From: an uncultured Bacteroidota bacterium
Lineage (GTDB): Bacteria; Bacteroidota; Bacteroidia; Chitinophagales; LD1
Direction of reading: 5' to 3'
Assembly (NCBI GenBank): GCA_903919075.1
Contig: CAIXGR010000018.1
Span: 1-64,000 of the forward strand
DNA length: 64,000 nucleotides
In this document: positions 56,942-59,146 of the stretch, piece by piece
How positions within the stretch are numbered: the first letter of the stretch is position 1
Layout of the letters: each line of letters begins with the position of its first letter
Notes under the pieces: generated by a model
Databases searched by the model: none
Told to the model about the DNA's origin: nothing
Seen by the model: only the letters and a program-made list of their open reading frames with translations
Translations under genes and position numbers: made by a program

Positions 56942-57661
56942 ATGAAAAATACATTGCTTTTTTCTTGTACAGTTTTAATAGTTGCTATTACAGGATGTAA
57001 TAAACACGACAATTCGGAGGCCAGAATTAAAAAAATGACTTCCAGCAGAGGGTTCTCAACCGAATACTTTTATAATACGGATGGCTCTATTTCTTATTTT
57101 GTAAATTCCGATGGGGCTAAAACCTCTTACAAATTTTCGGGCAATACTATAGCCGAACAAATGAACGATTCGACAAGGGGTATGTTTGTTAAGTCTACAA
57201 TTTATTTGGGAGGCAACGGATGGGTTGATAGCACTACAGCTCAAAATGAGGGTAACAACTATAAAACAACTTACGTACACGATGCGGCTGGTTTAATTGT
57301 TGAATCGCAAAATTTCGCTGTGGGCTCAATGACGGATGTATCTAAGTATGTAGTTAAAGATGGCAATCAAATTTCATTAACTGTATCTGATTCTACTAAT
57401 CGCCCATTGGTTAATCGCTATTTTGACTACTATACTGATAAGCCCAATGTAATTTCATATAGCAACCACGGAATGAAATTTTTGGGAACTGACTCAAAAA
57501 ATTTAGTTAAAAAGATTGTTCAGGTTCGTCCTACAGGCGATACTTCAATTGCTGTAACATTCAAGTATTACTTTGATGATAAAGGCAGGGTTATTGGAAA
57601 AACAGCATTTGACGAAGGCCGTCACATGCTTGTTGATTCTACAACATTTACGTATAACTAA
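56942..57661 (+). CDS. Hypothetical lipoprotein with YD-like repeats
   Basis: The 239-residue product has a lipoprotein signal with lipobox ITGC (C19). The mature part contains loose 'Y.Y...G....' repeats: TEYFYNTDGSISYF, TTYVHDAAGLIVES and FKYYFDDKGRVIGK. These recall RHS/YD-type or MORN-like beta repeats common in Bacteroidota lipoproteins that carry DUF-type sugar-binding folds. No enzyme motif is visible. It is followed by a strong terminator at 57682 and appears monocistronic. Confidence 0.7.
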   Translation: MKNTLLFSCTVLIVAITGCNKHDNSEARIKKMTSSRGFSTEYFYNTDGSISYFVNSDGAKTSYKFSGNTIAEQMNDSTRGMFVKSTIYLGGNGWVDSTTAQNEGNNYKTTYVHDAAGLIVESQNFAVGSMTDVSKYVVKDGNQISLTVSDSTNRPLVNRYFDYYTDKPNVISYSNHGMKFLGTDSKNLVKKIVQVRPTGDTSIAVTFKYYFDDKGRVIGKTAFDEGRHMLVDSTTFTYN

Positions 57662-57681: not shown

Positions 57682-57717
57682 AAAAAAGGGTTCCAAGTAT
57701 TCTTGGGACCCTTTTTT
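57682..57717 (+). terminator. Strong intrinsic terminator after the lipoprotein gene
   Basis: 57682-57697 (aaaaaagggttccaag) pairs with 57702-57717 over 16 bp (one wobble) with a 4-base loop and a six-T end. Confidence 0.92.
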
Positions 57718-57773
57718 ATTTGTATCGGTTTCTTTCAATTTATGGATTAGAAAATGTTTTGCATCTTATTAAT

Positions 57774-58239
57774 ATGCTAGCCATTTTCCGAAAATATTGC
57801 CGACCCGGTTCAATCAGCTTGGTTTTTCTGCAGGTGCTTTGTTGTGTTTACCTGAACAGGTATTTGCACCCAAAAAAAGAATATGCAATTCAATTCAACG
57901 TGCCCCGAAAAAACAATCTTCTTGGAAATTCTCCCCCCCCCGGTACGGAACTATAAGCGAGTTGAATTAACCGGCGAAAGAGAAGTTGATAGCAGTAGCC
58001 TCGACTCAGTAAGGGCTTCAGTACGAAACATAGTAAGGCAGAATGACACACATGCTGGGATTTACATTCATTTTGGTAGCAATACCAAATATCAAGAGCT
58101 AATCAATGTACTTGATATTTGCGATATTGACGGGGCTAAAATATATGAATGGGTGGATAATAGTTTTTGGATTGCGCCAATAGAGAACAGCCCTAAAAAG
58201 GGGAATAAACTTATTCAAATGGAACCACTCAAAATGTAA
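57774..58239 (+). pseudogene. ExbD-like membrane protein gene split by a run of nine C
   Basis: Two overlapping frames look like one gene. The upstream frame (ATG 57774) gives a membrane helix (SISLVFLQVLCCVYL) and KKEYAIQFNVPRKNNLLGNS, then a stop at 57954-57956. The downstream frame, open from 57883 to 58239, gives RVELTGEREVDSSSLDSVRA, IYIHFGSNTKYQELINVLDI and GAKIYEWVDNSFWIAP. The frames meet at nine C (57933-57941). With eight or eleven C they would fuse into about 154 residues with ExbD/TolR layout: one N-terminal helix and a periplasmic domain. The ExbD assignment rests on architecture and weak motif likeness. The break may be phase variation, mutation or a sequencing error. Confidence 0.6.
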
Positions 58240-58245
58240 TCATAT

Positions 58246-59091
58246 CTATTTAAACCTATCTATATTTTCAAATTTCTGCTTCAAGAAGTCCAGAATAATC
58301 GTATTTACCAAAGCAGGATTTTCTTTTTGCGGGTAGTGTTTGGTTCCCGGAATAATGGACATATAGCCTTGCTTTACGTTTTCAAACATTTCATTGGTAT
58401 GGCTTAGTTTAATAATGTCGTGGTCACCAGCTATAAATAGTGAGGGGCATTTAATCTCGGCCAAGTTTTCCAAGGACAGTTTAGGTTCAGTAAGTAACAT
58501 AGTTTGCATGCGTTGGGTAAATTGCCCAATAAGATTGTAGTTTTTGTAATCTTTAAAATGCGTTTTTACGTAATCGGTCATTTTATCAATATCCCAGGCT
58601 TTTACTTTGTTCAAAATTTCGGCATAAACTGCGGTAGTATCTACTTTATAATTAGCGCCTATGGCTATCAATTTTTTCACTTTTTTAGGATGGTTAATAG
58701 AAAGGAATAACCCTATTATGCCACCATCACCAAATCCTACAATGTAAGCGCTATCAATTTTTAATTGACTCATTAATTGAACCACATCTTCGCTTAACAA
58801 GGCATAATCCATTTTACGGTCGGTAAATGTAGATTGGCCATGGCCGCGGCTATCTAAGGTTATAACTTTGTAATATTTTGAGAATGGCGCCACTTGTTTA
58901 TCCCAATCAGACATGCTTTCCATTGAGCCGTGAAGCAGTATTAAGGGCTCGCCTTTGCCATAAACTTTATAATGCAGGGTTACATCGCCTATTTTGGCAA
59001 ATTGGCTTTTTGCGGTATCGGCCTGTTGCGAGAAAACTGATGTTATTGCAAATAGCAGCAATATTGATAATGTGGTAAGCTTTATTTTCAT
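58246..59091 (-). CDS. Exported alpha/beta hydrolase lacking the serine nucleophile
   Basis: Starting at ATG 59091 (MKIKLTTLSILLLFAITSVF), the 281-residue protein has a signal peptide and a full alpha/beta hydrolase fold. It has the oxyanion HGSMESMSDWDKQ, DSRGHGQST, the acid in FIAGDHDIIKLSH and the histidine in GTKHYPQKENP. At the nucleophile elbow the sequence is VGFGDGGIIGLF. The residue expected to be serine (usual VGWSDGGIIG) is Gly121, codon 58729-58731, one base from a serine codon. It may be inactive or act in binding. Confidence 0.8.
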   Translation of the reverse strand: MKIKLTTLSILLLFAITSVFSQQADTAKSQFAKIGDVTLHYKVYGKGEPLILLHGSMESMSDWDKQVAPFSKYYKVITLDSRGHGQSTFTDRKMDYALLSEDVVQLMSQLKIDSAYIVGFGDGGIIGLFLSINHPKKVKKLIAIGANYKVDTTAVYAEILNKVKAWDIDKMTDYVKTHFKDYKNYNLIGQFTQRMQTMLLTEPKLSLENLAEIKCPSLFIAGDHDIIKLSHTNEMFENVKQGYMSIIPGTKHYPQKENPALVNTIILDFLKQKFENIDRFK

Positions 59092-59146
59092 AAAAATGAT
59101 TTTGGCGCGCCAAGTTAACAATACTAACGGAATATGTTGTATTGCA

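Follow-up and report, generated by a model that had tools for sequence, protein, structure and literature searches.

The window analysed here, a 64-kb stretch of DNA from an uncultured Bacteroidota bacterium, contains at 57774-58239 on the forward strand two overlapping reading frames that meet at a run of nine C. The upstream frame begins at ATG 57774, encodes MLAIFRKYCRPGSISLVFLQVLCCVYLNRYLHPKKEY..., carries the helix, and stops at 57956, shortly past the tract; the downstream frame terminates at TAA 58239. The 5′ half (57774-57932) specifies a short N-terminus, a membrane helix predicted at about residues 12-28, and the start of a periplasmic linker, whereas the 3′ half (57942-58239, including the stop codon) specifies a predicted periplasmic domain with a remote likeness to ExbD/TolR. 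Between them, the nine-C run (57933-57941, +) encodes a proline linker and sets the two halves in different frames. A sequence-only reading of this DNA had placed the run at exactly this position and had calculated that eight or eleven C would yield one intact protein of about 154 residues; the position and the arithmetic are both correct, and since the joined window product aligns over its full length with intact homologues, the single protein of that size is right as well.

Using the downstream half as a query against 60 relatives, we found matches in two congeners, G013 and G006, in which a single open frame of 157 and 152 aa, respectively, spans both halves. The joined window product is 45% identical to the G013 homologue over its whole length and 37% identical to that of G006. 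Relative to G013, the 5′ half shares 57.7% identity over 52 residues with an identical start position, and the 3′ half 38.8% over 98 residues. Because a single ORF of each homologue matches both halves, comparison at the sequence level confirms that the two frames are halves of one gene, as had been claimed, and rules out two unrelated adjacent genes. A separate product of the downstream ORF from ATG 57883 was set aside as unlikely, since no homologue has a start there.

No other C or G run in the window is as long as the C9 tract; next come three runs of 6. A first-order Markov model predicts 0.07 C runs of at least nine per 64 kb, or 0.19 for C plus G. Genome-wide (3.53 Mb), however, there are 20 C/G runs of at least eight, of which 10 are at least nine, approximately the 10 expected by the same model for 3.5 Mb; the tract is thus locally unusual, though not unusual for the genome. 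Its history appears to be short. The Pro-Pro-x-Arg motif of the linker is mostly kept in homologues, where it is written in mixed codons (CCA CCA, CCT CCT, CCA CCC or CCG CCT), and there is no C tract in G013, G006 or the four other homologues with codons listed (six in all). This codon comparison indicates that the poly-C run arose in the window lineage. Neither half of the gene has decayed: no second lesion (another stop or indel) is present in either, codon position 3 is the most diverged in both, and with G006 as reference the window branch carries 15 unique protein changes versus 17 on the G013 branch. The relative-rate check and the lack of a further lesion rule out an old pseudogene, and the frame break must therefore be recent, reversible or an artefact.

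The proposed relationship of the protein to ExbD was upheld only in part. The downstream half scores 15.8 bits against Pfam ExbD (PF02472; 15.2 in a second scan), below the curated cut-off of 25.4, and ten more distant relatives scanned gave no Pfam ExbD match. An NCBIfam scan of 12 family members returned only TIGR02804, in one of them, at an E value of 0.019. A profile-profile comparison (hhalign) with 28 ExbDs of the order gave a probability of 86.5% across 108 columns (P 4.6e-6), while six column-shuffled controls reached at most 0.2%; this match supports a family that would be remotely related to ExbD/TolR at best. The predicted architecture is similar, a single membrane helix at the N-terminus leading into what would be a small alpha/beta domain in the periplasm, although some relatives of the split gene, unlike ExbD/TolR, carry a second, C-terminal helix. 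An AlphaFold model built from two sequences was poor (pLDDT 48), its PDB matches were not meaningful, and it gave no usable fold match.

The remote similarity supports neither full membership of the ExbD family nor the role of energy transducer that the sequence-only reading had assigned to the protein. Motors of this class have their ion site at a conserved Asp halfway through the membrane (PMC9389320). All 28 ExbDs compared from the order carry the Asp, whereas the N-terminal helix of the 12 family members lacks it in every case. By eye we recognised no ExbB-like (or TolQ) neighbour of the gene in the window, nor any in flanks of about 1.5 kb around its homologues. Four intact canonical ExbD genes lie elsewhere in the genome, so that losing the split gene would not alone remove ExbD function. 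We reject an ExbD energy transducer for want of the Asp, taken together with the four other ExbDs and the lack of an ExbB seen nearby. The protein is most likely small and located in the inner membrane, with a domain in the periplasm but no proton coupling of its own. It would belong to a sporadic family whose members are ExbD-like but without the proton-coupling Asp, and for which we found no Pfam or NCBIfam model of its own.

The distribution of the gene is equally sporadic. It is present in 3 of 18 congeners, with different neighbours each time, and absent from the other 15; within the order, 13 of 396 genomes hold relatives, and within the class 21 of 395 do, and no recurrent neighbour was visible among the homologue loci read. 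One other family member (L049, in G253) contains an internal stop. In the window, the split gene lies between a hypothetical lipoprotein-like gene (56942-57661, +) and a convergent alpha/beta hydrolase gene (58246-59121, −). In G012, the counterparts of these flanking genes adjoin about 100 bp apart, with no gene and only a terminator-like hairpin between them. A terminator-like hairpin (AAAAAAGGGTTCCAAGTATTCTTGGGACCCTTTTTT; 57683-57718, +, its inner stem reported on the other strand), recognised by reading the sequence, likewise follows the upstream gene in the window, which suggests that the split gene is probably transcribed from its own start; upstream of it, a search with the Bacteroidota promoter pattern gave only one-mismatch sites. 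The gene is most likely a dispensable, optional accessory orphan. A phage-borne origin was considered and rejected, as blastn gave no match in a phage collection and no relative occurred in viral contigs. Elsewhere, at loci L190 and L192 (genomes G416 and G681), the ExbD-like orphan family is represented by two tandem copies beside apparent ABC-transporter genes.

The behaviour of other homopolymers in the genome gives a context for the break. In a survey of C/G tract loci, with split and intact genes classified partly by eye, none of eight coding runs of eight was split, versus three of the five that reach nine or more (13 genes; Fisher p about 0.035 without adjustment, one of two comparisons). 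Both of the other split genes encode glycine-rich, surface-type proteins. The first, a secreted Gly_rich_2 protein gene (L020, G000:C43:14833-14841), is divided between two frames at nine G, and its domain match ends at the tract; the second, a PKD/Gly-rich gene (L032, G000:C51:10676-10685), is split at ten G and has an in-frame stop further downstream. The L032 protein resembles that of L020. Among 14 genes with coding runs of at least nine in the congeners sampled, 13 are intact, one with 13 C, so that long runs do not break genes as a rule; their long C/G runs are mostly intergenic or in frame, and the intergenic ones show no clear relation to gene starts. Slippage-prone tracts are nevertheless real in this lineage.

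Three further observations deserve separate mention. A congener gene with ELWVSDGTAAGT-type repeats (L125, G007:C19:115483-115491) is apparently split between frames at nine G. At L118 (G005:C47:72770-72782), a thirteen-C run (G on the sense strand), in frame in this assembly, comes directly after the signal peptide in the gene for a secreted protein of 535 aa, a position that makes it a better-placed candidate for a contingency locus than the nine-C gene. In G002, many of the long C/G runs (on contigs such as C11, C55 and C121) lie no more than about a hundred bases from a contig end, and these are likely to be read artefacts.

Our best explanation, to which we give about an even chance, is that a recent length change in the young poly-C of a proline linker put the gene for one small single-pass inner-membrane protein out of frame. 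The conserved Pro-Pro linker would have drifted to all-C codons in the window lineage until the run was long enough for replication slippage to be common, whereupon one slip would have broken the frame; the broken form may survive because the gene is an optional accessory. Since a run of this kind is prone to slippage, the break could in principle be undone: further slippage could restore the frame, making mixed tract lengths in the population plausible, which does not imply selected switching. A little full-length protein might also still be made, as runs of CCC codons are prone to +1 ribosomal slippage by tRNA-Pro.

A tract that was miscalled, or that represents the consensus of a mixed population in which the gene is intact in most cells, is an alternative that we consider unlikely. 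Long C/G runs are error-prone, and the excess of split coding runs of at least nine in this genome (3 of 5, versus 1 of 14 in the congeners sampled) also speaks for it. Gross homopolymer errors, though not a single miscall at this tract, are argued against by the A/T runs of 7-8 inside long window ORFs, which stay open, and by two housekeeping genes of this genome that are intact despite their runs, those for the PiT phosphate transporter (nine) and a ThiF-rhodanese protein (ten). The authors of the GeneTack survey put many of the frame breaks seen in single genes down to sequencing error (PMC3711429). The G013 record used for comparison (Umea3_bin-1751) is a metagenome bin.

True phase variation, in which frequent slipped-strand mispairing at the C run would turn the protein on and off and selection would maintain the switch, seems to us improbable. 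An intragenic G/C homopolymer of nine is a classic arrangement (PMC8355987, PMC3711429); both halves of the gene are intact and undecayed, and the two other split genes encode proteins of a surface type. Set against this are the lack of the tract in every homologue checked, the absence of the gene from most congeners, and the placement of the congeners' long C/G runs mainly between genes or in frame. Still more doubtful is the broader proposal that the Asp-less ExbD/TolR-like orphan and the glycine-rich surface proteins form a small set switched by poly-C/G in this uncultured Bacteroidota lineage. A literature search returned no report of ExbD-like genes switched by poly-C in Bacteroidota.

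Recoding during expression, whereby +1 ribosomal slippage at CCC-C or RNA-polymerase slippage would yield useful full-length protein from the out-of-frame gene, is very unlikely, because the tRNA modification m1G37 normally suppresses the +1 shift, no stimulator was identified at the tract, and neither the frame change nor the run at this place is kept in any homologue checked. The frame change required is nonetheless in the +1 direction, and the site consists of successive CCC proline codons, on which tRNA-Pro(UGG) has a natural tendency to shift (PMC4519876, PMC7577736); in the nine-C state, a +1 shift inside the CCC codons would take the ribosome into the downstream frame, so that some full-length protein may be made.

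In conclusion, and returning to a recent slip as the favoured explanation, the locus as it stands is one at which a slip-prone tract breaks an accessory gene. In this it resembles the singleton frameshifted genes of the GeneTack survey (PMC3711429), whose frame is broken in one genome while homologues are intact, but the break in the window, unlike those, sits at a slippage-prone run. Should the tract vary in the population, homopolymer switching would extend to an environmental Bacteroidota lineage. Like the poly-G/C contingency loci of Campylobacter and Neisseria, C9 is a coding homopolymer whose length sets the reading frame; unlike them, it is not conserved among relatives and is known here from the tract length of one assembly.
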